Shown: piece after piece, positions 5,994 to 63,699 of the stretch | How positions within the stretch are numbered: position 1 is the first letter of the stretch | Layout: each line of letters starts with the position of its first letter | Assembly: GCA_023242925.1 (NCBI GenBank) | Contig: CP096134.1 | Coordinates: 1,941,501 to 2,005,500 of the forward strand | Length of the DNA stretch: 64,000 nt | Origin: Hyphomonadaceae bacterium JAD_PAG50586_4 | GTDB lineage: Bacteria; Pseudomonadota; Alphaproteobacteria; Caulobacterales; Aquidulcibacteraceae | Direction of reading: 5' to 3' | The notes under the pieces: generated by a model | What the model saw: only the letters and a program-made list of their open reading frames with translations | Databases searched by the model: none | What the model was told of the DNA's origin: nothing | Position numbers and translations under genes: made by a program

Positions 5994-6905
5994 CTATACT
6001 TCATTGCGGCTTCTTCGCGCCTGAAGGATGTTGATGAGCGCCTTTACCGCAGGACGGAGGTCCCATCGCGCGCGAACCGCGCAACACATCGGCGATGGTT
6101 CGGCAAACATCTTGATTGAATCCAGCGTGACGAAGAGATTTTTGAACGCCTGGCTTTGACTGGCTTTGGGCGTCATTGTCACGCCGATCCCGTTTGTTGT
6201 CGCGACGATCTTTCGAACCAGTGGAAAGAAATCCACGACGTGAATGCGTTTTCGCCAGTCGACACCTTGATCCTCATAAAGCGCCCGGATGATCGTGCCA
6301 TAGGGGCGAGAGTCGGACGCGCTGACGAAGTCATACTGAGCGAGCGCGCGTGGCGTGATCTTGCGAAGCTTCAGCAAAGGATGCTCGCGCCGAACGAAGA
6401 GCGATCCTGCGTGATAGTTGGGGATATCGAAGCGTCGAAGATCAGGCCAATCCGAGAAGGCGGCGTCAAACCCGACCGCCACATCGATGCTGCCGGTTCT
6501 AAGCTGCTGTACGATGCGTTCAAAGTTGGATCCGTTGACGTCAAGCCGGATCGGCGGGTGCTTCTTCAGCAGACGCGCGATCGGCTCAATCAGCATAAAC
6601 TCCATCGAGGCCGGGCACACGCCCACGCGCAATATGCCAGCATATGGATCCTCGTCGGCGTGAGGACGGCGCAGGAGATCCTTAGTGTCGTCGATGAGTT
6701 TTTGCGCGCGATCGGCAAAATCGCGTCCTTGCTCAGTAAGTATGGCGCCACGTGAGGTGCGCAGGAATATTGAATAGCCGATCTGGCGCTCCAAGTCCGC
6801 GATGCTGCGCGTAATCGCTGATTGGGTGACGCCGACAGCGATTGCAGCCCCAGTGAAGGAGCCAGCGCGTGCGACGGCCACGACATGATTGAGACGATTA
6901 TCCAA
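5994..6905 (-). CDS. LysR-family transcriptional regulator
   Basis: 303 residues. The N-terminal winged helix-turn-helix is textbook (VVAVARAGSFTGAAIAVGVT, QSAITRSIADLE, LRTSRGAILTEQGRDF), followed by a periplasmic-binding-protein-like effector domain from about residue 90. It is divergent from the acyl-CoA ligase gene at 7144 and convergent to the crotonase, the usual arrangement for a LysR activator of the neighbouring ligase. Its inducer may be a pathway intermediate such as an acyl-CoA; this is inference. Confidence 0.92.
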   Translation of the reverse strand: MDNRLNHVVAVARAGSFTGAAIAVGVTQSAITRSIADLERQIGYSIFLRTSRGAILTEQGRDFADRAQKLIDDTKDLLRRPHADEDPYAGILRVGVCPASMEFMLIEPIARLLKKHPPIRLDVNGSNFERIVQQLRTGSIDVAVGFDAAFSDWPDLRRFDIPNYHAGSLFVRREHPLLKLRKITPRALAQYDFVSASDSRPYGTIIRALYEDQGVDWRKRIHVVDFFPLVRKIVATTNGIGVTMTPKASQSQAFKNLFVTLDSIKMFAEPSPMCCAVRARWDLRPAVKALINILQARRSRNEV

Positions 6906-6977
6906 GCCTCATATTCTTACAAAGAATGTCAGTGGCAGACAATGCATTGGACGCAGGTTGCGGCGGCGTGCTTCGTT

Positions 6978-7001
6978 GCGAGCGTGGGCCCCAACGCTCG
7001 C
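6978..7001. promoter_or_regulatory. Inverted repeat in the lysR / acyl-CoA ligase intergenic region
   Basis: GCGAGCGT at 6978-6985 and ACGCTCGC at 6994-7001 are perfect inverted repeats with an 8-base GC-rich spacer. They sit between divergently transcribed genes (lysR start at 6905, ligase start at 7144), so they may be an operator or a hairpin in the ligase leader. No promoter elements were assigned with confidence. Confidence 0.35.
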
Positions 7002-7143
7002 GTGCGAGTCTGGGGCGATGCCGTATTCGCCCGCGCGCGAACTGCACAGGCTGGAGGCCATAGCGCCTGCGGCGTCTCTGGGTCGCCAACCGATCGGATA
7101 CGGGCGCGCCGGGTCCGTTCGACCCCAACTAGGGAGACGAATT

Positions 7144-8705
7144 ATGTCGGACGCACCCAGCTATAGCGCATTCCCAGCGAGCAAGGCGGCCCTGATCATG
7201 GGCGAGTCTGGTCGGGTCATCACCTATGGTGAGTTGGAGGCGCGGGCCAATCAAGGTGCGCATCTGCTGCGGGCGGAGGGATTCAACAACGGCGACGTAT
7301 TGGCGGTCTACATCGACAATTGTGCGGAGTTCTTTGATGTGGCGTGCGCCGCGCGACGCAGCGGTCTCACAATCGTTCCAGTGTCGACCAAGCTCACTGC
7401 GGGGAAGTTGCGTTCATCGTGCGAGATTGCGGCGCAAAGGCGTTGGTTCTCTCGGCTCACACGGAAGCGTCCATTAAAGACATCGCTGTGGCGCTTGGCG
7501 AAACGCCGCTGCTGAGCGTAGGCGGCGGTTTGCCCCACGCGCGTCCCTGGGATGAGTTGCGCGCAGCGCAACCGACAACACCGATCGCGGACGGACGCGC
7601 GGGGCGGGAAATGCTCTATTCCTCGGGCACCACGGGTGTTCCCAAGGGCATTACCTACCATGGTGTGGACGGCATGAGCGGTGCGGCAAGCAGCGCTGTG
7701 CGTTTTATTGAGCGCGTAGGCGGGGGTCCAAACACTGTCTATCTGTCGTCGGCCCCGCTCTACCACGCGGCGCCCTTTGCGTGGGCGATGGCAATGCTCA
7801 CAATTGGCGCCACGACCGTCGTCATGGAGCATTTTGAACCCGAGCAGGCGCTTCGTCTTATTGAGCGCTACCGTGTTGCAATCACCCAATGGGTGCCAAC
7901 GCATTTCGTGCGTATGTTGAAACTGCCGGAAAGCGTGCGGCGCGATTACGATCTCTCTTCGCTGCACCTGGCGGTTCATGCGGCAGCGCCTTGTCCCGTG
8001 GCCGTCAAACGCGCGATGATCGAATGGTGGGGTCCCATACTCCTTGAATATTATGGTTCAAGCGAGCAGACGGCGCTGACGATCATAACGTCGGAAGAAT
8101 GGCTTGCCCATGAGGGCTCTGTGGGGCGGTGCATGCTTGGGAAGCTGCACATCTGCGATGACGACGGGAACGCACTGCCGACGGGCGAAATTGGCCTAGT
8201 CTATTCTGAGGGCGGGATGGCGTTCTCTTATCACGGCGATCCGATTAAGACTGCAGCAGCCCGCAATGCGCAGGGTTGGACAAGTGTAGGCGACATCGGC
8301 CGATTGGACGAAGAGGGCTATTTATATCTTACAGATCGCAAGAGTTTCATGATCATATCTGGCGGCGTGAATGTCTATCCGCAAGAGATCGAAGACTTGC
8401 TCATTTCCCATCCCCAAGTCGCCGATGCGGCGGTGGTTGGCGTTCCAGATGAAGACCTGGGCGAAGCCGTTACAGCTGTAATTCAGCTGATTGAGGCGAC
8501 CCAAGCCAGCGCGGCGCTCGCGCGCGAGCTGCAACATTGGCTCCGCCAGTCATTGTCGGCGATCAAAACTCCCAAGCACATTGTTTTCCGCGCCACTCTG
8601 CCGCGTTTGCCAACTGGCAAGATGGCAAAGCACATTTTGAAACGCGAGCTGGCCGAAGAGCGAGATCAAGCTGGCCTACGCAACGCAAATGGCCCGCCAG
8701 TATAG
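7144..8705 (+). pseudogene. AMP-forming acyl-CoA synthetase, single frameshift (probably a sequencing indel)
   Basis: The start ATG 7144 has GGGAGA upstream. The first 85 or so codons read as an ANL-family N-terminus (VITYGELEARANQGAHLLRA). The frame is then lost at the four-G run 7401-7404 and continues in another frame as GEVAFIVRDCGAKALVLS. One extra G restores a continuous protein of about 520 residues. Downstream are the P-loop SSGTTGVPKG, YGSSEQT, VGDIGRLDEEGYLYLTDR and the C-terminal LPRLPTGKMAK lysine. It would activate a carboxylic acid to its CoA thioester for the surrounding beta-oxidation genes. The 3' end overlaps the convergent acyl-CoA dehydrogenase by 40 bases. Confidence 0.85.
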
Positions 8706-16526: not shown

Positions 16527-18786
16527 TTAGAAGCGGAACGCCGCCTGCACACCCCATGTTCTTGGCTCGCGCAGATTGACGACAATACGCGAACCGCCAG
16601 GCGTGAAGGGCGCGGTCGCCTCTGAGGGGACCCCGGAAACGGCGCTGACCACCACGTCCTCGTCCGTGAGATTGCGTCCCCATAGACGCAAGGAGATTGC
16701 GCCATCGTTCGTTTCAAAGCCGGCAAGCGCATTCACCAGCCAATAGTCCGGTTGCTTGAATCCGGGTGTGTTGGCGTCGTCGAAGAAATAGCTCTGAGCC
16801 CAGCGCGCGTCGCCGCCGAGACGGAAGCTCCAATCGCTAGAGACGGGATGCACCCAGTCAGCCGTGAGGCCAATCGTGACCGGAGAGACGCGAGAGAATT
16901 CGCGTCCTTCCAAAGCAGGGTCGTCGCTTTCGGTAAACTCTGTTTCTTGCACGCCGAGATTGGCGCCGAAACTGAGTTCTTGGGTGGGGCGATACTGAAG
17001 TTCCGCTTCAAGGCCGTAGATTACGGACTCAGGATCATTGAACAAAATATAAGTCGGAACGCCCCCGATAATTTCGACACGGAAAGATTGTCGGTCCTGC
17101 CAAACTGAATAGAAGGCTGTGGCGTTGAAGATCAGACTGCGCTCAAGCGCAGTTGAGCGAAACCCGATTTCGTAGGAATCCACAAATTCGGGATCGACAA
17201 TATCCCCAAGCGCTGTCGGGAGCGTGGGCAGGCCGGTCTGGAAGCCGCCCGCCTTGTAGCCGCGGGCATAACGTAAATAAGTCGAGACGTCGTCTGTCCA
17301 ATCATAGGTCAAGGATACATCGCCAGTCAGCGCCGTTTCCTCAGCGCTGCTCGTGGGTGCGCCGACGGCAAGGGAACAGCCGTCAATCCCGCCAACGGCG
17401 CGAAGGGCTCTCCGACCGCTGGAGCATCGGAAAAACCAGTTCCGCCATTGATCAGACTGAAGGCGCTCGAGACGATGTCACGTTCGTCTCGTGTCACGCG
17501 CGCGCCGGCAGACAATGTCCAAGCATCGCTGAGTTCGGTCGTGAACGACGCGAACGCCGCGTAGCTGGTGGAGGTCGTCTCGCTGCGCGACGAGAGAATC
17601 GCCGGGGACGACGAAAGGGGGAAGAGGATGCCGGCTATCAAAGGCACGTTAATCATCGAGCGCGTTTCGTCTTCGATGGTTTCGCGCATGTAGTACGCGC
17701 CCGCAATCCAAGCGAACGCATCCGTGCCGTAGGTCAGGCGCAATTCTTGTGAAAACTGTGATTGGTCAAGGTCGGTGCCGGTATTCACGAGTGGCGCCGC
17801 TAGGCCGTCTTGTTCATTGAATTGGACGATCTCAAAAGTTCGGTAGGAGGTGAGCGATGTGAGATCGAGAGAGGGCGATAATTCATAGTTGAGGCGCAAG
17901 GCCGCGCCAAACGTGTCGCGTTCACCGGTTCCGTTGAAGTCCCCTGAGACCTCGCGGTCCAGACCTGCGGTGGTGAACGGTGTGGTGACTTCACCTGGCG
18001 CTGTATAATCGGCGCTGTTGTCATTGACATCGTCAGTTGAGCTATCAACCGTCAAGAGCGCTTCAAACCGTTCTGATGGCGTCCACAAAAGCTGCGCGCG
18101 GCCAGAGACGTTGTTGTCTTCACCGAGCGTGTCGCCGGTGAAGGCGTTCTCTGTAAAGCCGTCACGCACGCGACGGGAAAGACTAAGTTTGCCGGCAAGA
18201 GTGTCAGTCAACGGGCCGCTGATAAATCCAGCGACGTTGAACAATCCGTCAGATCCGCCCTCGATTGAGAGCGCCCCATCGAATGTTTCACTCGGACGCC
18301 GGGTAACAATGTTCAGCGCGCCGCCGATAATGTTCTTGCCCTGCAGCGTGCCCTGGGGGCCGCGCAGAACTTCGATACGTTCAATATCGAGCAGGGCCGC
18401 ATTGAATGCAGCAGAACGTCCGACAAAGACTTCATCAAGGATGACGCCATTGGCTGTCTCAAAGCCGGAAAAGACATCGCTTGACCGAACGCCGCGAATT
18501 GTCAGCAACGCGTTAGAGATGACGCCGCTGGGATTATACTCAACGTTCGGCGCAACGCGGTAGACGTCCGCAGGCGCGCTAATGCCGCGCAAGGCCATGG
18601 TTTCCGCATCGAGAACAGTGATCGAAAGGGCACGTCTTGGACGTTTTCTTCGATCTTTCTGGCCGTAACCACGATTTCGTCGGCTTCGACAACAGAGGTG
18701 GCGGCGTTTTGCGCGAAGGCCACATGGGGCGCGCATGTGATCAGTGCGGCCGAAGCCCATACGATGTTGCGAAATCCGGCCATCAC
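16527..18786 (-). CDS. TonB-dependent outer-membrane receptor, two frameshifts
   Basis: Start at 18786 or the next codon, giving a signal peptide (hydrophobic ASAALITCAPHVAFAQ) and a TonB-box/plug start DEIVVTARKIEENVQDVP. The frame shifts at GGG 18628-18630 (one C missing on the coding strand), after which LSITVLDAETMALRG continues the plug, then at about 17354-17362 before TSSAEETALTGDVSLTYDW. Plug motifs LRGPQGTLQGKNIIGGALNI and the terminal aromatic FRF are present. About 750 residues if corrected. It would import a pathway substrate with TonB energy. First gene of a unit with M19 and OCD; a MarR-type palindrome lies 57 bases upstream. Confidence 0.88.
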
Positions 18787-18842
18787 AATTCTCCCCTTTG
18801 CGATCAGAGCCTGCTGATGGTTGCAATGTTAACCATGCAATA

Positions 18843-18858
18843 GGTTGCGAGTGCAACC
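18843..18858. promoter_or_regulatory. MarR-type operator copy 2 (extended palindrome)
   Basis: GGTTGCGAGTGCAACC, a 16-base palindrome containing the GTTGC-N4-GCAAC core at 18844-18857, 57 bases upstream of the TonB receptor start. A related partial match, GGTTGCAATGTTAACC, lies just downstream near 18822-18837 and could be a secondary site. Confidence 0.65.
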
Positions 18859-35595: not shown

Positions 35596-37613
35596 ATGGC
35601 GATGCAATTTTCCACTCAGCAAGTCGTGCGCATGTCCTTGCTCATGTTGTGTGTGGGCGTACTGGGCTCAGTGGGCGCAACGCAAACACTCGCGCACATC
35701 TTTCGCTATCAGCCCGCCCTTGGTGATGCGTTCAGCTTGGGCGGCGCGCGGATCTACGCGCCATGGGCGTGGCTTCAGTGGGAAGGCGCATGGGGCGCAG
35801 ATTATCCGCGTCCCTTTGCAATCGCACGGCTTATGGGCGGTGCGGGGCTCGTCTTGGCGTTTGTGGGGCCAGCGCTGACGCTTCGACGCGCGCAAGCGCT
35901 GCGTCCCTTTGGCGAGGCTGCATGGGCGAGCTTCGCTGACATTGAAGCTGCTGGGCTCTTTGCTAAGGGCGGCACGATCCTCGGTAAGATCGAGGGCGAG
36001 ATCATCGCCTTCGATGGTCCAGAGCATCAGCTGCTCATCGGCGCTTCGCGCTCTGGCAAGGGCCGGGGTCAAGTGGTGCCGACCTTGCTCGCCTGGAACG
36101 CATCGGCGCTGGTTCTCGACATCAAGGGCGAGCTCGATCATGGCGATCCGCGTCATGGCTTTCCGGGCACTTCGGGGTTGCGCGCGACGCTTGGCCCGGT
36201 GCTGCGCTTTGCGCCCACCGATCCAAACTCCAATTGCTTCAATCCCTTGTTTGAAGTGCGGCGCGGATTGAACGAGATCCGCGACATCCAGAATATTGTT
36301 GAAGCCCTGGTGCATCCTCAAGGAGAGACGCGCGGCGCCGAGCTCTTCTGGAACAACAAGGGCAAGGAGATCATCACCGGCCTCATCGTGCACGTGCTCT
36401 ATAGCGAACCGGTGGCGCGCAAAACTTTGGCGCGGGTACGCGAAAAGCTACGTGACCTCGATTCCACCGCCGAAGAGATGCGCACAAGTCTGCATCGCTT
36501 CAATCCGGAGACGGGCCTGGCCGAAGTACATCCCGAAGTGCTGCACGCGGCCCAATCTTATCTCGCCAGCGAAGAGCGGCTGCGTTCAGGGATCAAGGCG
36601 ACGGCGGAATCCTTCTTCGGCATCTTCGCCGATCCGGTGGTGGCGGAAAAACCGCGCATTCGGATTTCCGCATCGGCGATCTCATGTGCTTGGATCGCCC
36701 GGTCACGCTCTATCTGCAACCGCCGCCCTCGGATGCGCCGCGCCTGATGCCGCTGATGCGGCTCTTCATCAATATCACCGCGCGCACCCTGATGGAGGAT
36801 CAGACCAGGGATGGCGAGGGCCGGCAAAAGAAGCATCGCCTCTTGTTGCTGCTCGATGAATTTCCCCAGCTCGGACGGCTCGACTTCTTTGAGAAGATGA
36901 TGGGCGCGATGGCGGGCTACGGGGTCAAAATCTACCTCGTCTGCCAATCGCTCAATCACATCATCGCAGCCTACGGCCGCGACAATGTCATCATCGACAA
37001 TGCGCACATCGTGACGGCGTTCTCGGTCGCCGACCCCGAGACGGCCAAGCGCATCGCCGACATGGCGGGCGAGGTGTGGGAGATGCGCCCGCATGAAAGC
37101 GAGCAGCGGCCGCGCGCCATGCTGGGCGCACGCAAAGGCACGATCACCTATCGCGAAGAGCGCCGTCCGCTCTTGCTGCCGGGCGATGTGCGTGCGCTGG
37201 GGCGCGATCAGCAACTCATCTTCGTCGCAGGCGTAAAGCCCATCCGCGCCAAGAAGCTGCGCTTCGACCAGGAGCAGCTCTTCGCAAAGCGCATGCGCCC
37301 GCCAGCGCCGAAGGCTGACGGACACAAAATTGCGCACGATTGGGAAGACGTGCGGCTGGTCGGGCGACTTCTCCCCACACCCAAGCCCCGCACGAATGCA
37401 AAGGCCGAGCCTCGCGCAATCCTGACCCGTCCGGCGCCAGCGACAGCGCAATCTGATTTGTTCGAACACACACAAGCTGTCGCGTCGGCATCGGCGCCGA
37501 ATTCGCCGACGATTTCAGAACTGGCGTCGGCTGGCCTGCGGGCCCCGCATGCAAATACGCCCGAGGCTCATGACAGCGAACCGCTCAAGCGGTCGCGCGC
37601 GACAGGAGTGTAG
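35596..37613 (+). CDS. traG: Conjugal transfer coupling protein TraG/VirD4, one frameshift
   Basis: The ATG at 35596 gives two N-terminal membrane segments (MSLLMLCVGVLGSVGA and GGAGLVLAFVGPALTL). Walker A is GASRSGKGRGQVVP; Walker B HRLLLLLDEFPQLG and MMGAMAGYGVKIYLVCQS are in the second half. The frame breaks at the five-A run 36647-36651; six As give AEKTAHSDFRIGDLMCLDRP and a protein of about 672 residues. It couples the relaxosome to the type IV secretion channel at the inner membrane. First of the tra/trb block; no relaxase gene is visible in the window. Confidence 0.92.
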
Positions 37614-49636: not shown

Positions 49637-52600
49637 TCACGCCTCAGTAGCGTTTGGCTCGGGCGGCAATTCCAATTCGTAGCGGCGTCCGTGCCGATCG
49701 CCTGCTTGCTTCAACAGATTGATTAGGCGACGTCGTTCAACGCCGGTGGCAGCTCGAGCGAGCGGCAAGACTCGTTCATGAATAAAACGCTCGGAGGCGA
49801 TCGAGCCGGGGCTTGCCGATAGAGATGCAAAATAGCGCGGCGTATGCAAGAACCGGCGCAGCAACGCATCCTGACCCTTGGCAGACAGAAGATCGGTGGA
49901 GATGCTCGTGGAGGGCAGCAGCGTCGAGATGAGGTATTGCGATACAATCGTGTCATCGTCGGCGTTGACGATCTCGATAAGCCGTGCGCGAGCACGGTCG
50001 GTCAGATTGCCTGCTACGAAATTTTTGATGTTGAATGGCGCTACCACGAACTCATCAATGTCGGTTGCCGCCAAGGCCTCCGCCCATGCTTCGAGGTCGT
50101 CGCACGTCGGCGGGAAGGATACGCTCTCATTCAGAAGTTCAATTGTGTAACCGGCGCCCGCGCGAGGATTGGCAGTACGTCTTCCTCGGACACTCGAGGC
50201 GCGCGCTCATATGCGCGGAACGCGAAATAGCGGAGGTCCGTCTCAAGGTTGATGGGCTCCTTGAGGCAAGCCGCCCAGAACGCGTTACGCTCGTCTTGTG
50301 CCTCAGGCATGAGCATCCGCAACGCCAGAGCCTCGTCCGCGTCTTGTGAAGCTGCTTTCGTAGCAATAGCCTCGCCCCAAGAGGGGGCGAGCGTGATCAG
50401 TCGGGCGAGAAGCGCGAAGGTCCAACGTGAACTCGCGTCACTGGTACGGCGTGCGGCAGCCAGCAGCGCGTCCAACAAAGCGTCACTGACCGGTGGAGCG
50501 GCGAAGAGTTCCTTGTCGTTTTCGACATGCTCCTCCAGAAATGAGGGGAGCCGCAAATAGAGCTGAAAGATCGCCGCTTGGCTGCCTCGCGCGATCGCCC
50601 GTGCGAAAAATGCATCCACCGCGGCGCCTTTTCTTGTGCAAAGCGCTTCAGGGGCGATCGCATCGGAAATTGCCGCGTTTGAGTCCGCCCAGGTGATAAC
50701 GTCCGCGACGAGTGGGTCCGCGATACCCGAGAGAATGCTGCTGTATTTGTGGGCTACATGTACGTTGTCGTTTGCCTCACTCTCGACGTCTGACGCCCAC
50801 CGTTCAAGTACCTGCGCGAGTGTCGCTTTGTCGAGGCGTCCTCCAAGCACCGGGCCCACTCGCGTCCAAAAATTGTAGCGATCTGCTGCCGAGAGGTTGA
50901 TCCAATCGTGTACATCTACAGCGTCTGAAGTTGCCAGGTAAGCTAGGGCCGCCCCCGTGGCCGCCTGAGAGAGCGACATTGCCAACGTCAGGAGCTCCGG
51001 CTTTGCACCCGGCGGCACGCGCGAGTTCTCCAGCCGGCTGTTGACTGCATGACCAAAGGTTATGTCCGGTTTTAATTGCCGCAGCTCACCCAGGGCAAGC
51101 CGCCAGAGCGCCTCGCTCTCCATTTCAGCGTTTTCGGCCACGCGAATGCCCAGAACGGGATCGACCGCCATGACCTCGGTGAAGAAACGCTGGCGTTCGC
51201 CTTGCGGTAGACGCGCGGTACACCAGACCACGGCATCGTCCCACCGGTTGGAGTTCAGCACGTCGCGGACCCGCGTTTCTTTCCTCTCCCAGGCGCCGGT
51301 GAACCAGCCCGACGCCAGATACTCTGTGATGATGCGGTGATGAAACCGCACGGCGCCTTCCACTTCGGAAGCGAACAACCCCGAAGCGACGAGCTGATCG
51401 AGCGCATGGGCTCCGCCAACGCGATCTGCAGCAAACGTGCGATCAATATTCTCTTTGCCGCTATTCAGCACTTCAACGGCGATATTTTCAAGTTCGGTCA
51501 AGTGTGACGCGATCGCGACGCCAAACGCCTGTTCAGCGCATTCCTCGACAAAGCTTTCGATGAGCAAAGGCGCCGAGGAAATGCTTGGCTGACGAGGCAA
51601 GTATCTGCGTGCAAGCGAAAGCACAAAAGGCGTGCGCAAAGATTGGCGCAATAGAGGAGAAGCGCTAGCGCCGACCTCATGCAAGTTCGCGTCAATGGTC
51701 TCATCGCTGAGCGGGTTGATATAAAGCGTAACCGCATCACGCTCACGCAACATTTCCGCACGGCGCGTGAAGAAGATGGTCTTGGTGCGAGCGTAAGGCG
51801 CGCACATTCGTTCGAATTCGCCCTGCCAAGTACCCGATTCGAGGTGCTCGGCCGGAATCTCGTCGATGCCGTCAACCAAGAACGTGATTTCGTGAGATTT
51901 AGCGAGGCCGAGAAGGTCGAGTCCGGCTGGCAGAAAATTGTCCACCACAGCTTTGAGGTCGCCGGCGTAGCCGCGAACGTTCAACAGGACAGGGATTGCG
52001 GGCGCTGTGCTTGCAACGGGTTGATCAGAGCTGCACCAATCTAGCAAGTCGCGTGCAAGCTTGCTCATAAAGCGAGCGACCGCGAATGTTTTTCCAGCGC
52101 CTGCAGACCCCTGAACGATCATGTTTCGTGGAACCGCCATCATGAGATCAGATATCTCGCCATGATGTGGGAGTTGCTCGGCCTCGTTCAGCCAGTAGGG
52201 GTAGCTGTCGGCCGTAACCGCAATGATGTGCGCGGGCCCCGTGTAAGCCCAGCGCGCTGCATAGCGCATTAGCTGATACGTCGTTTGCAGGCGATCGAGC
52301 GTCGCGTGGGGTGCTGTGGGCGCAGGCGCTCTAACGATTTCTTCCAGCAGATCGGCGAGCGCGGCATGGCGTGCCGCGCCTTCGCCATCTCGCGTTTGGT
52401 AGGCGACTACATCGATGTTATATTGCCGGCGCCAATAACCGCGTTCTTCTTCATCGGCGTCGGCAAGGATGGCCCAGAAGTCGCCGACGCCTTTATTGTG
52501 CCGCGCTTGAAGCGTTTGCAGAACCAGCAACGTGTCGGGATCTTTGAGGCCGTAGCCCAAAAAGAGCACGGGCCGGGTCACCATTAACGTCTCAAGCACG

Positions 52601-53298
52601 CGAAGAACTGAATTGTTCTGTCCGGCGAGCACCGAATTATAGTGGGACCGGCTGAGCACGAGCGTCTCAGCGTCATTCATGTCGCCGTGCGGCTTGAAGA
52701 TGAAATTGTCGGCGCTCGCTTTTTGAATGTCAGCAAGTTCAGACACCTGACGGTTTGTAACCGTCCTGAATGCGGCGCTGCGTCCCGTCAGACCCAATTG
52801 TTGCTCGATCAGATTATCATAATTGGTCGAGACGTAGCGTTGTGGGCCGAGGCGGGTGATGAGATCGTGAATACGTGAGGGGCGGGCGGCGGCGAATTTC
52901 TGGCGTTCGCGGATCACGACGCCAATCTCTGCCTGCGTGATGGAATCTGAAAGCTTGTCGGCAGCGTCGAGAAGGTCACCCGCGGCGAATGCGCTCCGGG
53001 CCAGCCGCGTCGGACGCCCGCGTTCTTCGCAATAGTCGATTAATCCGCCGATGAGCCGCGGCCAAGTCGGCAGAAGCGACCAAGTAGAGATGCCGGACCC
53101 AACAAAGAGAACCGTGTCCGGATCGCGAACGACGTCGACCAACACGCGCGCTGAATCGGATAGAGCCAAGGAACGCCGACCACTCTGTGACTTTGAGAGT
53201 CGCTTATCCGATTTTGGTGCGCTTAGCCAAGCTATGGTTGTACACGGACCTTGTTGGCCAGCGCATTGACGACCCGTTTTCATGCAGTCGGAGCTCAC
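49637..53298 (-). CDS. SIR2-STAND (NACHT-type) protein, Avs5-like antiviral candidate, probable frameshift near the C-terminus
   Basis: SIR2 domain about 50-300: LFVGSGIS (65-71), VSTNYDNLIE (157-165) and FKPHGD (201-206) keep NAD-binding and catalytic His positions; FLGYGLKDPD follows. The STAND NTPase has Walker A QGSAGAGKT (397-404) and Walker B FLVDGIDE (473-480), then a long helical repeat-like sensor region. Such proteins degrade NAD upon phage recognition. As sequenced, a stop falls at 50131; one base added near 50151-50160 continues as GYTIELLNESVSFPPTCDDL into the frame ending at 49637 (about 1,220 residues). The start is uncertain; an internal TTG at 53169 is possible. Confidence 0.82.
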
Positions 53299-53747
53299 GG
53301 GGGCAACGACCGGAAATATCCGGTCCTTGCGTCCCTCGACCTTTTTTAAACCCAGGCGCTTTGGGCCGCGTGCGGTGAGTGGAGCACGATGAGCGTCTCG
53401 CTCCCTCGAGGATGGTCGCCATGCGTTGTTTACCCTCCTGGCCCTCGAGCCAATCTCTAGTCATCCCGATAGAACTCGCCGTTCCTCGAAAGGCCCGCAT
53501 ACGCCGGCAACCCGTCGATGCCGGCGCCATTGGCGCCGGGTGTGCGCATTCCTAGCGTTGGGGGCCTTGCTGCAGAGGCGTCAACGCTCAAGTCTCCTTA
53601 AATCATTGGCCCAGTGGGCAACTCGCTCCTGGACCCCACTGAGGGTTCATGCTATGTTCCGATCGGGTTTGGAAGGTGTCACATGGTGCTCTCAATTCCC
53701 ACGTCTAAACTGCTCGGGCGTGGGGTTTGTGAGTCGCGGGAAGCGAT
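53299..53747. other. Gene-free divergent region with an inverted repeat
   Basis: About 450 bases between the minus-strand SIR2-STAND gene and the plus-strand DUF3850 gene. GACCGGA (53308-53314) and TCCGGTC (53319-53325) form a perfect 7-base inverted repeat 10 bases upstream of the SIR2-STAND start, which could be an operator. A six-T run at 53342-53347 is not adjacent to a stem and is not called a terminator. No convincing coding frame. Confidence 0.45.
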
Positions 53748-55144: not shown

Positions 55145-55762
55145 TTGGCGAATGGTCGTAAGCGCATGGTGACCCTCGGAAGAGAGCAGCCGTCTGTCGG
55201 CGCCGCGCCGCGTGTTGAAATTCTTGGGCTCTTCGGCTCGGGCAAGAGCACGCTGGCGCAGCGTCTCGCGGAGGCACCGTGCCGTCTCGCGCTCGAGCGT
55301 CACGAGCACAATCCATTTTGGGGAGATGAGCATGGAGTATCGATCGTGGGCAGCCTGGCCTACGATCTCAACTTTCTGCTTCATCACACATATTTGGCCA
55401 CTCGCAAGACATCACCGATGCCGTTGCTTTGCGATTGGTCGTTCGCGACGGATTTACTTTGGGCGCGCATGCGTCTGGGCGAGGACTTCGGAGTATATAA
55501 ATCAGCCCACGAGGCGCTTACGCAGCGACTAGGGCCTGCGATCGGGTACCTGCACCTCTCCACACCCCCAGACCTCGTAATTGATCGGATCAAAAGACGC
55601 GGCCGCGTCCCCGAGCGAGGCCTGGTCGCGTTTGTACAAGAGGCCTCAGTCGCGTTGGAGCACGTTTCGTCGTCACTTCCACAAGAGCGGGTATTGCGTG
55701 TTGACGATCTATTCGGCCTAACTGCCTTCAGGGAGGCGTTGAGGCTATGGACCGGAATGTAG
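55145..55762 (+). CDS. Deoxynucleoside-kinase-like P-loop protein
   Basis: 205 residues (an internal ATG at 55166 is possible). P-loop EILGLFGSGKSTLAQRLAEA, acidic ERHEHNPFWGDE at the nucleoside site, CDWSFATDLLWARMRLGEDF and IGYLHLSTPPDLVIDRIKRR with the lid RGRVPERG resemble dAdo/dGuo kinases. It would phosphorylate a (deoxy)nucleoside. It overlaps the FAD/GAF-like gene by 16 bases, so both are made together. Confidence 0.75.
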   Translation: MANGRKRMVTLGREQPSVGAAPRVEILGLFGSGKSTLAQRLAEAPCRLALERHEHNPFWGDEHGVSIVGSLAYDLNFLLHHTYLATRKTSPMPLLCDWSFATDLLWARMRLGEDFGVYKSAHEALTQRLGPAIGYLHLSTPPDLVIDRIKRRGRVPERGLVAFVQEASVALEHVSSSLPQERVLRVDDLFGLTAFREALRLWTGM

Positions 55763-57846
55763 AAAAAGATCCAAAAATTGTATTGGATACATTTTCGCTG
55801 GGATGCGCACCGATCTTCGTGATCGGATCATTCACTAAGGGAGTTACGGTCTATTCGCAGCAGGTCCGGGCCCTCAACTTGATCTGGTCCTTAGTGGAGG
55901 CGGGTGGCGTCGCGGACGGAGGTTCGAAAAGGATCGCAATCGTGGGCGGTGGGTTTGCCGGCCTTACAGCGGCCGCTGCGCTGTTGAAAAAGCTCCCCGA
56001 TGCTCAGATTACGATCTTTGAAAAATTCGACACTTTACTACCGCTCCAGCACGGATGTGATGCGCGCTGGCTTCATCCCAAAATTTACGACTGGCCAGCA
56101 GAGGGGAGTGAGGCGAGCGTCGCCATGCTGCCGCTGCTAAATTGGCGCGCCGCTCGCGCATCGGACGTTACCGCGGAAGTCATGGGTGAATGGCAAGCGC
56201 TCATGGGCGCGGAGGCCAAAGAAAGTGAAAAGGCCAAGAGGGCGGAACGCGTCAAAGTGTTCTGTAATACACGACATCTCCAAATCGAGACGCAGAGAAC
56301 AGAAGAAAAGGTTCTTCTTGAGTGGATTGGAGAGCCGCGCCACAGCGATGGCGGCAGTCGAGAAGAGCCCTCGCATGGCGGAAAAGGGCGTTTTGACTAC
56401 GTATTGCTTGCGGCCGGATTCGGCATAGAGCGGGCAACCCCGTCGTACTGGCGCAATGATGAGTTTGCGCAAGCGAGTTTAAGCGCGCGCCAGTCTTACA
56501 TCGTTTCCGGTGCGGGCGATGGAGGGGTGATTGACTTGCTTCGCTTGCAAATCTCCCAGTTTCGCCAGGACCGTATCCTCAACGAATTGTTCGATGATGT
56601 CACCGCGCTGCTTGATGCCTTTAAGAAGGCGCAAGCGGACAAGGTGGAGGATCTCTTCGTTGAGTTCGAGAGAATCGCCGACGCACATCCTAAAGAGTTC
56701 AAAGCCGTGCTGGAAAAGCTACGGCGGCGAATTCGACGCGATACAGAGGTTATCTTCAAGTATCGCACGGAGCGCCTGAGCGACCTGATCGGCAAGGACG
56801 CCCGCCTCTCATTTCAGAACAGAGTGTTATTTTTCCTGCTTTACCAGTGCGGGGCGTTTACGCCGAGCCGCAAGAAGCTGCGCCATCTTGCAGATCACTA
56901 TTTTGTGGGCCCTACGCATATCATTCGTCGTCACGGTGTTCGCCCTGAGGAAGCGCTCAGTGCGGTCCTGTCTAAAGACTTGATGGAAGCGGTCGAGAAG
57001 AGCCGCGATGCACTCGAAAAGCAGACATCACAAATTCAGTGGCGGGGCGGCTATTTCGCCTTTGCGGGAAAGTTAGGCGCCGCGAAGCAGAAACCCGATG
57101 GGGAGAAAGCGAAGTGGCGTAAAGAATATCTCCCAGGTCCGACCGCGCTTATGGCGCGTTCGTTCTGTTCCACGGTTGCGAGCATTTTGGAGAAGCGGAA
57201 TCAATCGGATCGCCGACTTCGTGTGACGCTGCATCGTGCCCTGATCGTCGGCGAGGAAGAGTTTCTTCAGCAGACGTGTCGGTATGCCGGATTTAATCTA
57301 AAGGGTGGTGACCAGGATGGAGCGGGGCGCACCTTTTCAAAGGAGCACGCCAGCATTGGCCTTGCGTACAGATCACGCAAGATCGTGCGCAGCCACGAAA
57401 ATGTACCAAATGAAGTGCTCGCCGCGGCCATGGCAGAGCTCAACTTGGAGGAGGAAGCGCGGCAGATGGATGACCGGGTGGGGTTCGTTCTGGCGATCCC
57501 GTTTCTTGAACCACTCACGGAGTTCACTGCGCCTAATCCGGTTTCGGCGGTGCTGTACATCGATACAACGTCGCAAATGCATCTCAGTGATGAGGAGGTC
57601 CGTGAGATCGTAAAAATCTGCAACAACTGGCTTGCAGATATCGTCAATAGTTCAAAGGATCTCGATCGCGTTTACAATTTGCGCCTTTCGGCGATCGGCC
57701 GGAATGCTCCTCCGCCGGCCGAGGTCAGTTACGCGATTACCAGGGCTTTTGAATTGATGGATGGGGTGCTTCCGCCAGAAACGAAAAAGCCGTTTCAACT
57801 GAATTACGACTATAACGATTTCAGACCGGTGGGCGGACCTAGCTAG
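55747..57846 (+). CDS. Large FAD/NAD(P)-binding protein with C-terminal GAF-like domain
   Basis: 699 residues; no known family recognised. A short N-terminal segment (APIFVIGSFTKGVTVYSQQV) precedes a dinucleotide-binding fold, RIAIVGGGFAGLTAAAALLK (67-72 core), and YDWPAEG. A second phosphate-binding turn, IVSGAGDGGVIDLLRLQ, is near 258-275; a helical middle (290-400) follows. From about 440, MARSFCSTVASILEKRN, EHASIGLAYRSRKIVRSHEN and VGFVLAIPFLEPL then VSAVLYIDTTSQMHLSDEE look like a GAF sensor domain. A ligand-sensing flavoenzyme is suggested. It is translationally coupled to the nucleoside-kinase-like gene and lies in a defence island. Confidence 0.7.
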   Translation: MDRNVEKDPKIVLDTFSLGCAPIFVIGSFTKGVTVYSQQVRALNLIWSLVEAGGVADGGSKRIAIVGGGFAGLTAAAALLKKLPDAQITIFEKFDTLLPLQHGCDARWLHPKIYDWPAEGSEASVAMLPLLNWRAARASDVTAEVMGEWQALMGAEAKESEKAKRAERVKVFCNTRHLQIETQRTEEKVLLEWIGEPRHSDGGSREEPSHGGKGRFDYVLLAAGFGIERATPSYWRNDEFAQASLSARQSYIVSGAGDGGVIDLLRLQISQFRQDRILNELFDDVTALLDAFKKAQADKVEDLFVEFERIADAHPKEFKAVLEKLRRRIRRDTEVIFKYRTERLSDLIGKDARLSFQNRVLFFLLYQCGAFTPSRKKLRHLADHYFVGPTHIIRRHGVRPEEALSAVLSKDLMEAVEKSRDALEKQTSQIQWRGGYFAFAGKLGAAKQKPDGEKAKWRKEYLPGPTALMARSFCSTVASILEKRNQSDRRLRVTLHRALIVGEEEFLQQTCRYAGFNLKGGDQDGAGRTFSKEHASIGLAYRSRKIVRSHENVPNEVLAAAMAELNLEEEARQMDDRVGFVLAIPFLEPLTEFTAPNPVSAVLYIDTTSQMHLSDEEVREIVKICNNWLADIVNSSKDLDRVYNLRLSAIGRNAPPPAEVSYAITRAFELMDGVLPPETKKPFQLNYDYNDFRPVGGPS

Positions 57847-58154: not shown

Positions 58155-59060
58155 ATGCCGGCCGAACGTGCCAAGAAGCGAGTGAACACTACCGCCAACA
58201 ACGTGCTGCCCTTTCGCAAGAAGGGCGGGCCCACGGCGACGATTGAGTGCGAAGACAATCTGAGCTTTATGCGAGCGCTAGATCCAGGCTCGATGAAGCT
58301 CATTGTTACCTCTCCGCCCTACAACATCGGCAAGGAATACGAGGAGCGTCGGAGCCAAGAGCGTTACATCGAAGAGCAAGCAGCGTGCATCGCTGAGGTA
58401 GTGCGGCTCTTGCATCCTAAAGGCTCAATCTGCTGGCAGGTAGGCAATCACGTTCAAGGAGGCGAAATTTTTCCTCTCGACGTGTTGCTTTACCCGCTCT
58501 TCAAGAACCACGGCCTCCAGCTACGCAATCGTATCGTCTGGACCTTCGGCCACGGCCTTCATTGCCAGAAGCGCTTTTCGGGTCGACACGAGACCATCCT
58601 GTGGTTCACCAAGTCCGACGACTACACCTTCAATCTCGACCCGGTGCGTGTGCCGTCGAAGTATCCCGAGAAGAAGCACTTCAAGGGACCCAACAAAGGC
58701 AAGATATCAAGCAACCCGCTGGGCAAGAATCCGACGGACGTGTGGGACATCCCGAATGTGAAGTCGAACCACGTCGAAAAGGCCGACCACCCTTGCCAAT
58801 TTCCGGTGGGGCTCGTTGAAAGACTCGTGTTGTCGCTGACCGACACGGGCGACAACGTGCTGGACCCCTACATCGGAGTGGGATCGTCTGCGATCGCCGC
58901 GCTGAAGCACCAACGACATGCCTACGGATGCGACACCGACTACGGATACGTCAAAACGGCGCTGGCTCGCATCGAGCAGTTGCACGCGGGCAAGCTGCGC
59001 ACGCGGCCTATGGATAAGCCCATTTATCAGCCCCCGCCGAAGAACCGAGGCGGCCAATGA
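58155..59060 (+). CDS. Beta-class site-specific DNA methyltransferase (N4-cytosine or N6-adenine)
   Basis: 301 residues. Catalytic motif IV VTSPPYNIGKEYEE (51-64) near the N-terminus, target-recognition region in the middle (RFSGRHETILWFTKSDDYTF) and SAM motif DNVLDPYIGVGSSAIAALKH at the C-terminus: the beta-class order. TSPPY is more often N4-cytosine, but N6-adenine cannot be excluded. It protects host DNA from the endonuclease encoded next (4-base overlap). First gene of the five-gene operon. Confidence 0.92.
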   Translation: MPAERAKKRVNTTANNVLPFRKKGGPTATIECEDNLSFMRALDPGSMKLIVTSPPYNIGKEYEERRSQERYIEEQAACIAEVVRLLHPKGSICWQVGNHVQGGEIFPLDVLLYPLFKNHGLQLRNRIVWTFGHGLHCQKRFSGRHETILWFTKSDDYTFNLDPVRVPSKYPEKKHFKGPNKGKISSNPLGKNPTDVWDIPNVKSNHVEKADHPCQFPVGLVERLVLSLTDTGDNVLDPYIGVGSSAIAALKHQRHAYGCDTDYGYVKTALARIEQLHAGKLRTRPMDKPIYQPPPKNRGGQ

Positions 59061-59518
59061 AGTTCGCCGGCGCCTTCTCGCTTCACAACGGCGATGCCGA
59101 ATGGGATCGCCGTGATCTGAAGGAATGGCTGACCGATTTGTTCGAGGCGCCCGCGATCCAAATCGGGGTAGGGTGCACGAGCGCGATCCGTTCGCACCTT
59201 CGCACCGAACTCACCAATGCAGGCTGGGCCTCCAACGTCCGGATCAATTCGGCATACGACCTGACGGTTACAGGCATGTCCGGCGATCTCGCGTTCCAAA
59301 TTCAGACCGGCAACATCAGTCGGGCGATGTATGATCTCTTAAAGCTTGAATATCTCTACAAGGAAGAAAAGATTGCGGCTGCAGCGCTTGCGCTCCCCAC
59401 TAGAGTCGCGGCCAACGCGATCGCCTCCAACGTAGCGCACGTCGAACGGGTCTGGAGCGAACTTCAGCTGCTCCACCATATCATCAATGTGCCGCTACTT
59501 CTCGTGTCGTTCGAATAA
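59057..59518 (+). CDS. BglII/BstYI-like type II restriction endonuclease, altered active site
   Basis: 153 residues. INSAYDLTVTGMSGDLAFQI, then QTGNISRAMYDLLKLEYLYK, is the BglII-family core, in which the (E)-V-(E/Q)-F-G-N strand is followed by a DLLKLxYLY helix. The position of the catalytic Glu is Gln81 here (AFQIQTGN), with Gln83 as the third residue; Asp68 and Asp77 remain. So either it uses a variant site or it is a weak or dead nuclease. It overlaps the methyltransferase by 4 bases and precedes the ParB-like gene by 6. Confidence 0.75.
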   Translation: MKFAGAFSLHNGDAEWDRRDLKEWLTDLFEAPAIQIGVGCTSAIRSHLRTELTNAGWASNVRINSAYDLTVTGMSGDLAFQIQTGNISRAMYDLLKLEYLYKEEKIAAAALALPTRVAANAIASNVAHVERVWSELQLLHHIINVPLLLVSFE

Positions 59519-59524
59519 GAGGCC

Positions 59525-60967
59525 GTGGTGAGCAAACATAAGATTGAGGTTCAGCCTCAGCACCAAAGAACGCAAGTGATCGCGGGGCTGGATACGCAGA
59601 AGGCGAAGAAAGCGGATAATTGGTTCGTACACGAAGGCAAGAACACGCCTTTAAGCGTCATCACGCTGCCGATCGGCACGCCAATTTATCGCATGGGCAA
59701 TGGTCGCACGCAAACTGATCAACTTGCCTATATCGCGGCCGCCAACGCCGCCGGCGGAGTGGGCGCGAAGGTCGGCGCGGACTTTTTTAGCGCCCATGAA
59801 GAGGATGTGGCCGCACAAACAGAGCAGCACAAGATTTTGATTAAGCTGGCCGAGACCGGCACAGATTCAATCACACCTATCATCGAAGAGCTCAGCCGCA
59901 CCGGGCAGACGAAGAGCATTCTCATTACGCCGACTGGCGTCGTCGTCGATGGTAATCGCCGATTGGCGGCCATGCGCGAGCTATTCGCCAGCGGGAAGTT
60001 TCCGAAATTTGCGACCATCGAATGCGAAGTACTTCCCCAACTAACTCCAGATCAGCTGGACGATATTGAAGATCGTCTGCAGATGCGCCCTGAGACGAAG
60101 CTCCCGTACACGTGGGTCAATGACGCCATTCGCGTGCAAAAGCGCTTGAAGTCGAAGAACGAGCAACAGGTTTCTCGCCTGATGCGGCGGGAAAAAGCCG
60201 ACATCAAGAAGGCGGTGCAGGCACTCGCCTTCGCCGACATCTATCTCACGGAATGGCTCAAAGCGCCGAATGACTACGCGCGCGTGGCGGACGGGCGGCA
60301 GTTTTTCTACGACCTCGTCGGGCGCATCAAGGACGAGGCCGGACCGCTGCGCGAAGTGAATATGCGCATCGCCTGGATGATGTTCGACAATCGCAAAAAC
60401 CTCGGCAGCCGCGTGTACGATTTCAACAAATTGCTAGGCAATCCAGAGGTCGCCGAGCGGTTGCTGGAGCATTTTCTCGACAACGAGGACGACGGCGACG
60501 ACGAGGCCGAAAGCGAGGCGAACGAAGGCGGTAACGAAGCGGAGACGCCTATTGTTGACCATGCTCCGGTGCCGACGGAAGGTGCGTCGGAGAGCGGGCC
60601 CACGCCGTCGGAGCCTGGAGATGGACTCGAGATAGATTTCGGGGAGGACGCAGCGCCTGCGTCTCCGTACACCGGCCTCATTTCCGCGTTGGACGATAAG
60701 GACCGGCGGGAAGACTTGACCGAAGATTTCATCTCGGTTGCTCAATTTGTCATCGACGCCGGGAAAGTGAAGCAAAAGGGGCAGGCGGCGCTCTCTGCCG
60801 CGAAGGACGCGAACAAGCGCTTAACAGAGCTTGATCTGACCGAGGCCGACGCGAAAACCTGGGACGGCCTTGAAAAGCAATTGGGCGCAGTCGCCAAGCG
60901 CTCAACCGAGCTCTTGGAGGCGTTGCAGGATATCCGCAAGAAGGCGGATCAAGCTAAACCCACGTGA
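59525..60967 (+). CDS. ParB/sulfiredoxin-fold nuclease-like protein
   Basis: 480 residues from GTG 59525 (or 59528). The ParB-like core is at about 125-155: KSILITPTGVVVDGNRRLAA, matching the V-DGN-RR motif of ParB/DndB-like NTPase-nucleases. Helical regions with QVSRLMRREKADIKKAVQAL resemble the ParB HTH part, followed by an acidic linker (DNEDDGDDEAESEANEGG) and a C-terminal helical bundle. Probably recognises or nicks DNA as part of the operon's restriction activity. Overlaps the helicase start by 4 bases (GTGA). Confidence 0.75.
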   Translation: MVSKHKIEVQPQHQRTQVIAGLDTQKAKKADNWFVHEGKNTPLSVITLPIGTPIYRMGNGRTQTDQLAYIAAANAAGGVGAKVGADFFSAHEEDVAAQTEQHKILIKLAETGTDSITPIIEELSRTGQTKSILITPTGVVVDGNRRLAAMRELFASGKFPKFATIECEVLPQLTPDQLDDIEDRLQMRPETKLPYTWVNDAIRVQKRLKSKNEQQVSRLMRREKADIKKAVQALAFADIYLTEWLKAPNDYARVADGRQFFYDLVGRIKDEAGPLREVNMRIAWMMFDNRKNLGSRVYDFNKLLGNPEVAERLLEHFLDNEDDGDDEAESEANEGGNEAETPIVDHAPVPTEGASESGPTPSEPGDGLEIDFGEDAAPASPYTGLISALDDKDRREDLTEDFISVAQFVIDAGKVKQKGQAALSAAKDANKRLTELDLTEADAKTWDGLEKQLGAVAKRSTELLEALQDIRKKADQAKPT

Positions 60968-62860
60968 CCGGAGCGCCATCAGTCTATCTCGAATGCGGCG
61001 CCCGCGGTTCGTACGGATTGCTTACGATCGATCCGCCGCACGACACTTTGCTGGGCCGCTTTCAGCAAGCGGCCCTCAGCTCGGGTATCGATTTCCAACT
61101 GCGTCCCGACGGATTGGAAATGCCTTGGGTCGGTCTGTTGTCGCTGTTGCGAGAATTTGGCCCGCAACAGCGATCGCTGGGCTTCCAGTTTCGGCCCAAG
61201 GGCGACGAGGCGCGCGACCGCATCGCGCTTTTCATGCGGCAATACAAACAAGTCCAAGCCGCACAGGGGGACCTTACACTCACGCTGTCGGAGGATGACG
61301 TTGATCGGCGCCTAGCCGAAGAGGGTTTCACGCTTCATGCCTTGAAGTCGTTCCAACGCCGCGACCTGGCGCGTCTGCTAAGTCTTTCGAACGGGGCCAA
61401 CTTCTCGGTGCCGGGGGCGGGCAAGACTGCCGTTACGTTGGCGATGCATCTGCTTACGCGCCGACCGGGGCAGCACATTCTCATCATCTGTCCGAAGGCC
61501 GCGTTTCCAGCGTGGCGCACGGTGGTCAAGGATTTCGTCGCGCCGGACGCGCCAAACGGCAATGCCGAAGAGTTCACGATTCTCTCTGGGACTGGCGAAG
61601 ACGTCACAAAGGCGCTGTCCAGCGGCAAGACCCGATCTCGTCATCAATTACGACCTGATCATCAACATGCCGGATGTGATCGGCCATTATCTAGCAACGA
61701 AGCGCGTCCATTTGGTTTTAGATGAAGCTCACCGCATGAAGGCGGGCTTGGGTTCGCTGCGCGGTGCGCTCTTGCTCAATGTTTCGCCGCTGCCAATTAG
61801 GCGGGACATTCTGACAGGCACGCCGATGCCGCAAAGCGCAGCGGATCTGCAATCGCAATTGGACTTCTTGTGGCCCGGCGGCGGATTAGGCGCGCGGATT
61901 GCGCGCGGGGCTTCGCCGCGATTAGTTCTCGGCAATCTCTTCGTGCGCACAACGAAGGCCGATCTAAAATTGCCCAAGCCGAAGCGCCACTTCAAACAGG
62001 TGCCAATGGCGAAGGGTCAGATGGCGCTCTACGGCGTAGTCAAGAGCGAGTTTGTGAGGCACGCAAGCGCGTTGCGCACGGATTCGCGCGTGGACCTGCA
62101 GTCAGCCAAGCGGACCATCATGCGGCTTCTGCAATTGTCAGCAAACCCGCTGCTCGCGCTGAAGGGGATAGCAGCTGAAGCTGCTTATTTCGATCAAGGC
62201 ATTTTGGAACAGGTAGTCGCCGAGGGCGCTTCGACGAAGATGCGGGCGGTCGCGGACTTCGCGCGTGAGCTTGCCGCTCAAGATCGCAAATCCGTGATCT
62301 GGACTATCTTCACCGATACCATCCTCCAAATGGAGCGTCTGCTCGCCGATCTCAATCCAGTGACGATTTACGGCGCGACGCCGACGGGCGAGCCGAGCGA
62401 TCCTCAATCGCGCGAGGGCAAACTCGCTCGCTTTCATGCCGACCCTGCTTGCAAGGTCCTGATCGCAAATCCCGCCGCCGCTGGTGAAGGGATCAGCCTG
62501 CACAAAGTCTGTCACGATGCGATCTATCTCGACCGCAGCTATGTCAGCACGCACTATCTGCAGTCGATCGACCGTATCCATCGGCTCGGCCTGCCCGAGG
62601 GCGTCGAAACCAATATTTGGATATACCAGACCATGGCGCCTGCTGGTTTGGGCTGCATCGATCATTCGGTAAGTCGCCGTCTGGCGCACAAGCTCAGAGC
62701 GTTGCAGCTGTTGCTGGACGATGAAGATCTGCACGATTTGGCTCTTGATGAGGAAAACGCGGACGATCCCATCGCATGGGACATCGATCTTGAAGACGTT
62801 CGCGATCTCGTCGAAGAACTCGAGGGCAGGGCTGTCTGGGTGGAAGAGGAAGCGGGCTGA
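60964..62860 (+). CDS. SNF2-type DEAH helicase/translocase, one frameshift
   Basis: About 632 residues when corrected. Walker A FSVPGAGKTAVTLAMHLL (149-155 core), Walker B VHLVLDEAHRMK, motif III LTGTPMPQSAADLQSQLDFL, C-terminal lobe with VIWTIFTDTILQMERLL and motif VI YLQSIDRIHRLGLPEG. The frame breaks at 61627-61628, where one A is surplus (or two bases are missing); removal gives SSGRPDLVINYDLIINMPDV. Likely an ATP-driven DNA translocase serving the nucleases. It overlaps the following gene by one base. Confidence 0.85.
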
Positions 62861-63699
62861 TGCTCGCGCCGAGCAGGCATTTCTCCGTCAGTGCGTTCAC
62901 CGCCGTCGAACTCATTCGTGCGTACAAGACGACATACAACGTCGACGCCGTGGCGGCGGCAAGCGCTCTCAATCGGCTCGACGCGTCATTTGCTGCAGCC
63001 GACGTCGAGGCGGGCCTCTCGCTCGACCAATTGCTGCCTGCCGACATCGATTTCGTAGACACCGTCGCCTCACTGCGGCGCGCGATCTGTTTTTTGATCG
63101 AGCATCATCGACCGCACTGGCGGCCCTACTGTGCCAGTGGCCGGCGCGCTCTCCTCGAGGCGCTTTCGTTGTCGGAGCTCCAGCTCTTCGACAATGCGGC
63201 GCTCACTGCGACCATTCCGTGCTTGGAAGCGCTCGAATGGTGGTATCGCCTACAAGCGCTTGTGCGCGGGCTCGAAAACTCGGCCAAGTCGCTGCAAGGC
63301 GGGAAAGCCGAAATCCTCACGCTCATGTACGAGCGTGAGCGGCTTCAGGCATTGGGTATCGGTCTGGAGCCGGAGTGGGTTGGTTTCGAAACTTTTGGCG
63401 TAGGCTATGATGTGCGTTCCTACGATCCCGGACCTTATGGACCTGTAGCGCGTCTCATCGAGGTGAAGTCGTCAAAGCGAAACCCGCCCCGAATGATTCT
63501 GACCCGAGGGGAATGGGACGCCGCGAAAAAATATGGCGACAGCTTTGTCTTTCACTTGTGGCGTTTGCCGAAAGAGGAGCGCGTAGAATATTCGGTCGCG
63601 GAGATCGCTGCGCACGTCCCCGATGACAGCGGGCAGGGGCGATGGAGCTTCTTGGAAATCGTTTTCGCATCGACTGCGCCAAACGAGACGATACCTTAG
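62860..63699 (+). CDS. DUF3883-type (Mrr/PD-(D/E)xK-like) nuclease-domain protein
   Basis: 279 residues. N-terminal helical region; the C-terminal domain has GFETFGVGYDVRSYDPGPYG then ARLIEVKSSKRNPPRMILTR, GEWDAAKKYGDSFVFHLWRL, which is the DUF3883/NO VEIN C-terminal nuclease pattern with Asp and Glu-x-Lys of a PD-(D/E)xK site. It could be a second, DNA-end or modification-dependent nuclease working with the SNF2 helicase. Last gene of the operon. Confidence 0.78.
   Translation: MLAPSRHFSVSAFTAVELIRAYKTTYNVDAVAAASALNRLDASFAAADVEAGLSLDQLLPADIDFVDTVASLRRAICFLIEHHRPHWRPYCASGRRALLEALSLSELQLFDNAALTATIPCLEALEWWYRLQALVRGLENSAKSLQGGKAEILTLMYERERLQALGIGLEPEWVGFETFGVGYDVRSYDPGPYGPVARLIEVKSSKRNPPRMILTRGEWDAAKKYGDSFVFHLWRLPKEERVEYSVAEIAAHVPDDSGQGRWSFLEIVFASTAPNETIP

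Follow-up and report, generated by a model that had tools for sequence, protein, structure and literature searches.

A minus-strand gene of the genome of JAD_PAG50586_4, lying in the window (the whole 64,000-nucleotide stretch of DNA analysed), seems to encode a single-gene STAND (NLR-like) phage sensor with a ligand-activated SIR2 NADase, a reading to which we assign a probability of about 0.72. What the sequence itself shows is the order of the domains, catalytic motifs that are intact, a three-member family and a conservation falling along the protein; that the protein senses a ligand, oligomerises, hydrolyses NAD and defends the cell is proposed by analogy with characterised systems. The gene is probably a functional-type member of a rare family of phage-sensor NADases. 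A SIR2-STAND antiphage NADase sensor had already been proposed in a sequence-only reading of this DNA, and this proposal is supported by the domains, the motifs, the full-architecture relatives and the defence-island setting, with the activity itself presumed.

Gene boundaries and the SIR2 effector domain

The gene at 50131-53298 is real, and its main ORF comprises 1055 codons with the GTG start as listed (Table 1). The sequence-only reading had given the gene as 49637-53298; a large minus-strand ORF indeed occupies this region, but these limits do not enclose a single ORF: a stop at 50131 ends the main frame, and another open segment lies in the -1 frame. The annotated start at 53298 is doubtful, because both relatives described below begin at the equivalent of residues 47-51 and because codons 1-46 have a GC content by codon position of 0.52/0.63/0.46, a non-coding pattern unlike the rest of the gene. 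To judge from these features, GTG 53298 is probably too early, and the true start is probably TTG 53169 or GTG/TTG 53145/53142. The 7-bp inverted repeat pointed out earlier upstream of the start does exist, but repeats of the same kind occur 62 times in the 64-kb window against 38-58 times in shuffled sequence. Its frequency being at chance level, it was rejected as an operator and carries no weight, still less if the gene starts ~130 bp further in.

Table 1. Features of the gene and its upstream region, in window coordinates
Feature	Position	Strand	Remarks
Inverted repeat, 7 bp	53308..53325	.	GACCGGA-AATA-TCCGGTC; chance-level
Main ORF	50131..53298	-	1055 aa as listed, GTG start; relatives begin at ~residue 47-51
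SIR2-like NADase effector domain (predicted)	52333..53157	-	residues ~48-322; Pfam SIR2_2, motifs, PDB matches
N159 codon	52822-52824	-	SIR2 STNYD motif
H204 codon	52687-52689	-	SIR2 HG motif
STAND NTPase, NACHT-like	51199..52311	-	residues ~330-700; sub-threshold NACHT, HyoA/EruA models
Walker A GSAGAGKT	52087..52110	-	residues 397-404
Walker B FLVDGIDE	51859..51882	-	residues 473-480; NACHT-style D-G-h-D-E
FHHRIITEYLA motif	51313..51345	-	conserved, after NTPase core; matches HyoA/EruA models and L010
Helical C-terminal presumed sensor, in-frame part	50131..51198	-	residues ~700-1055; no Pfam match
Remaining C-terminus, -1 frame	49637..50161	-	174 codons open; G715 match, coding GC bias

The N-terminal SIR2 domain with intact NAD motifs stood as first described. 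Pfam SIR2_2 (PF13289) matches residues 154-297 with E 2.2e-26, and the motifs GSGIS (67-71), STNYD (157-161) and HG (204-205, within KPHGD) are all present. Loss of the catalytic residues upon alignment had been named as a refutation; aligned with the two relatives described below, N159, D161, H204 and G205, which belong to the TNxD-type and HG (or NG) motifs of defence SIR2 NADases, are invariant across all three family members. In the PDB, the proteins most similar in sequence are three defence NADases, DSR2, ThsA and KomC, whose SIR2 domains carry the same motifs; PADLOC reports the SIR2 domains of ThsA, LmuA, PDC-S25 and Dsr1. The likeness to DSR2, ThsA and KomC is, however, limited to the SIR2 domain; full-length similarity to Thoeris ThsA or DSR2 was not found, and a scan of the adjacent genes in the window recognised no ThsB-like TIR partner.

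C-terminus and frame break

The frame break cuts off ~170 residues from the assembled main ORF. A problem with the C-terminus had been suspected at 50140-50165, rightly so, since beyond this point the coding signature and the match to a relative continue in the -1 frame. GC by codon position in this segment is 0.62/0.47/0.63, against 0.65/0.47/0.64 in the main gene, and its end aligns with the final 41 residues of G715, a relative whose ORF is unbroken (41% over 41 aa; E 1e-7 in a single pairwise comparison). The gene therefore continues to 49637, and with this tail the protein would be about as long as its intact relatives (1188 and 1180 aa). As for the long helical sensor proposed at this end, the length of the C-terminus holds, but the helicity comes from a low-confidence AlphaFold model, in which the C-terminal half is all-helical; built from a two-sequence alignment, with a mean pLDDT of 38, the model is too poor to test folds. 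No repeat families (TPR/Sel1/PPR) were found by family matching in either C-terminal piece.

The break is most likely an assembly indel. This is the simplest explanation, because other genes of the window are split alike and the genome is less complete than most of its well-assembled congeners. Frame splits affect at least four further genes of the 64-kb window: VirD4/TraG (35596-36747 and 36684-37613), an AMP-ligase (6889-7515 and 7344-8705) and a TonB receptor (17327-18856 and 16527-17312), each with adjoining Pfam coverage, and an SNF2 helicase (60964-61725 and 61562-62860) with adjoining ORFs. The genome consists of one contig and is 92.8% complete, whereas most well-assembled members of the genus reach 97-100%. 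Taken by themselves, the clean splits at 35596-37613, 6889-8705, 16527-18856 and 60964-62860 suggest assembly indels across the genome.

That a true mutation broke the frame, leaving a decayed copy now inactive in this genome, is rather unlikely. The stop at 50131 does remove a tail kept by the intact relatives, and Avs5, a characterised SIR2-STAND system, no longer defends once 17 or more C-terminal residues are deleted (PMC12931631); against decay, the four genes above are split in a like clean manner, the completeness suggests assembly indels, and the coding bias holds on both sides of the break. A programmed -1 frameshift yielding a short and a full-length form, which the continuation in the -1 frame might suggest, is very improbable because the junction shows no slippery heptamer and both relatives are unbroken ORFs, and other genes of the window are broken too.

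NTPase region, relatives and classification

Of the NACHT-like NTPase with good Walker motifs claimed by the sequence-only reading, both motifs are present, and NACHT (PF05729) is the best NTPase match, but at residues 392-483 (E 5.1e-5) it scores 23.6 bits, below the Pfam cut-off of 26.7. Pfam gave no PF05729 match in the two relatives. NCBIfam models of antiphage NACHT proteins also match the NTPase region, EruA in 3/3 family members as well as HyoA. A PDB search with the NTPase profile found no match below E 0.03, and in BLAST the NTPase region of the window protein alone matches only the two relatives.

These two relatives keep the whole order of SIR2, NTPase and C-terminus. The first, L001 in CP034120, was found in a scan of a genome contig collection and has 1180 aa, with 25% identity over residues 51-739; the second, G715, was the one further full-architecture relative in searches of ~1,680 whole genomes, and has 1188 aa, with 27% identity over 895 aligned positions, in another alphaproteobacterial family. 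The remaining matches in these searches cover the SIR2 domain alone or are weak matches to the NTPase region; a plasmid search matched the SIR2 region only, and viral and phage collections yielded no relative. Both relatives look like stand-alone genes, and IS transposase genes lie ~1.5 kb upstream of G715. CP034120 is labelled Glaciecola amylolytica, although the genes next to L001 give the impression of another phylum's, and the label may be wrong.

Among 67 SIR2 domains placed in a maximum-likelihood tree, those of the window protein and its two relatives form one clade (support 100/99), separate from the domains that are joined to nSTAND5 or NB-ARC NTPases. Identity between the window protein and its relatives falls from 43% and 35% in the SIR2 domain to 22% in the NTPase, and the C-terminus, searched separately against the relatives, gave no detectable match except for the final 41 residues. 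This drop from effector through NTPase to C-terminus would fit a fast-evolving sensor following changing ligands. The three proteins may, tentatively, represent a family of SIR2-NACHT-like sensors, ~1180 aa long, that is small and horizontally scattered, is distinct from Avs5 and from the described bNACHT clades and has its own phage trigger.

As the window protein gave no nSTAND3 match, and as the EruA and HyoA models match the NTPase region, the protein is provisionally best filed, as far as sequence goes, with bNACHT-type sensors bearing a SIR2 effector, the NACHT assignment being itself provisional, as it lies below the curated Pfam threshold. The window protein and its relatives share with bNACHT proteins the tripartite order of effector, NTPase and sensor in one polypeptide, and the NTPase region matches the EruA/HyoA models; the differences are the sub-threshold NACHT match of the window protein and the effectors of the experimentally studied bNACHT clades 6 and 14, which have a nuclease or no discernible effector domain (PMC12169576). 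A SIR2 effector on a bacterial NACHT protein has already been mentioned as a combination (PMC10952713). Fusions of SIR2_2 to other STAND NTPases, namely nSTAND_NTPase5 (L008, L018, L071 and L072) and NB-ARC (L064 and L025), are alike in general build but differ from the window family in the NTPase family and occupy separate branches of the SIR2 tree. In a further protein (L062, 73-2406, minus strand), SIR2_2 is joined to a hybrid histidine kinase (HisKA, HATPase_c and response regulator), an uncommon pairing which may sense via two-component signalling.

The description of the protein as Avs5-like held for its general architecture only. Avs5 proteins such as PaAvs5-1 likewise combine, in a single gene, an N-terminal SIR2_2 (PF13289), a central STAND NTPase and a C-terminal helical sensor, the last predicted here, its helices in a low-confidence model. 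Avs5, however, is made up of SIR2_2, nSTAND3 (PF20720) and TPR/Sel1/PPR repeats in ~830 aa (PMC12931631), whereas the window family is NACHT-like, ~1180 aa long and has no recognised repeats. A bona fide nSTAND3 protein, L082 (family match E 1e-41), aligns with the window family only at Walker A, with a probability of 16%, which is weak evidence as the template was a single sequence. Pfam gave no PF20720 match in the window protein at E<=0.1, and none of the PADLOC Avs models matched at E<=0.1; the library version used presumably contains an Avs5 model. Avs5 membership is not supported by Pfam, PADLOC or profile comparison. It is improbable that the protein is a true Avs5 (AVAST type 5) member whose NTPase has diverged beyond recognition, even though the overall order is the same, Avs5 clades themselves share only 18-21% identity (PMC12931631) and nSTAND3 weakly matches 30 residues of L001 (E 7e-4). 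That match is confined to the Walker A region, NACHT matches the window protein at 5e-5 where PF20720 and the Avs models do not match at all within the above limit, the three proteins have ~1180 aa against ~830 for PaAvs5-1, and Walker B is of the DGIDE type.

Genomic setting and proposed mechanism

The setting fits a defence island on a region that is, or once was, mobile. Conjugative type IV secretion genes form a cluster upstream in the window at 35.6-46.5 kb, and the nearby genes encode DUF3850, two P-loop kinases, a NUDIX protein and an FAD-binding LmuA-like protein, which bears out the nucleotide-metabolism-type neighbours noted at the outset. The LmuA-like gene (55747-57846, plus strand) encodes an FAD/NAD-binding protein of 699 aa with a PADLOC LmuA match at residues 23-382 (E 5.5e-70), and no SMC-type LmuB turned up in the scan of the adjacent genes. 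Farther along, a plus-strand row at 58155-63699 with an N6/N4 DNA methyltransferase, a 480-aa protein, the frame-split SNF2 helicase and NOV_C is a candidate restriction/defence set. Just past the window (L081, 1000-8222 and 15523-16824), the conflict island continues with an AAA ATPase, a 1697-aa WD40 and TIR_2 protein and a patatin.

Bacterial STANDs are able to sense non-phage cues, and the gene lies only ~3 kb from the conjugative cluster, so that, instead of sensing phage, it might protect this mobile island from rival plasmids or elements or respond to a stress other than phage. This is also quite improbable, since the neighbourhood is rich in antiphage-type genes and the characterised SIR2-STANDs are antiphage (PMC12931631).

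For a phage sensor, the following course can be proposed. At rest, the helical C-terminus would keep the NACHT-like NTPase in a monomeric state. Binding to the C-terminus, either of a phage product or of something that the phage alters in the host, would bring about oligomerisation through the NTPase, and the SIR2 domains thus clustered would deplete NAD+. Oligomerisation and NAD+ depletion are proposed because of the analogy with Avs5, in which the SIR2 domain hydrolyses NAD+ when triggered by the phage protein JADA, and which requires its Walker motifs and C-terminal helices (PMC12931631).

If this reading is true, NAD depletion would be the means of killing in a wider range of NLR-like bacterial sensors, and one SIR2 effector would be paired with several distinct STAND NTPases (NACHT-like, nSTAND5 and NB-ARC). 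Because the principle is already established, the gain would be a further receptor family and, with it, a new trigger.
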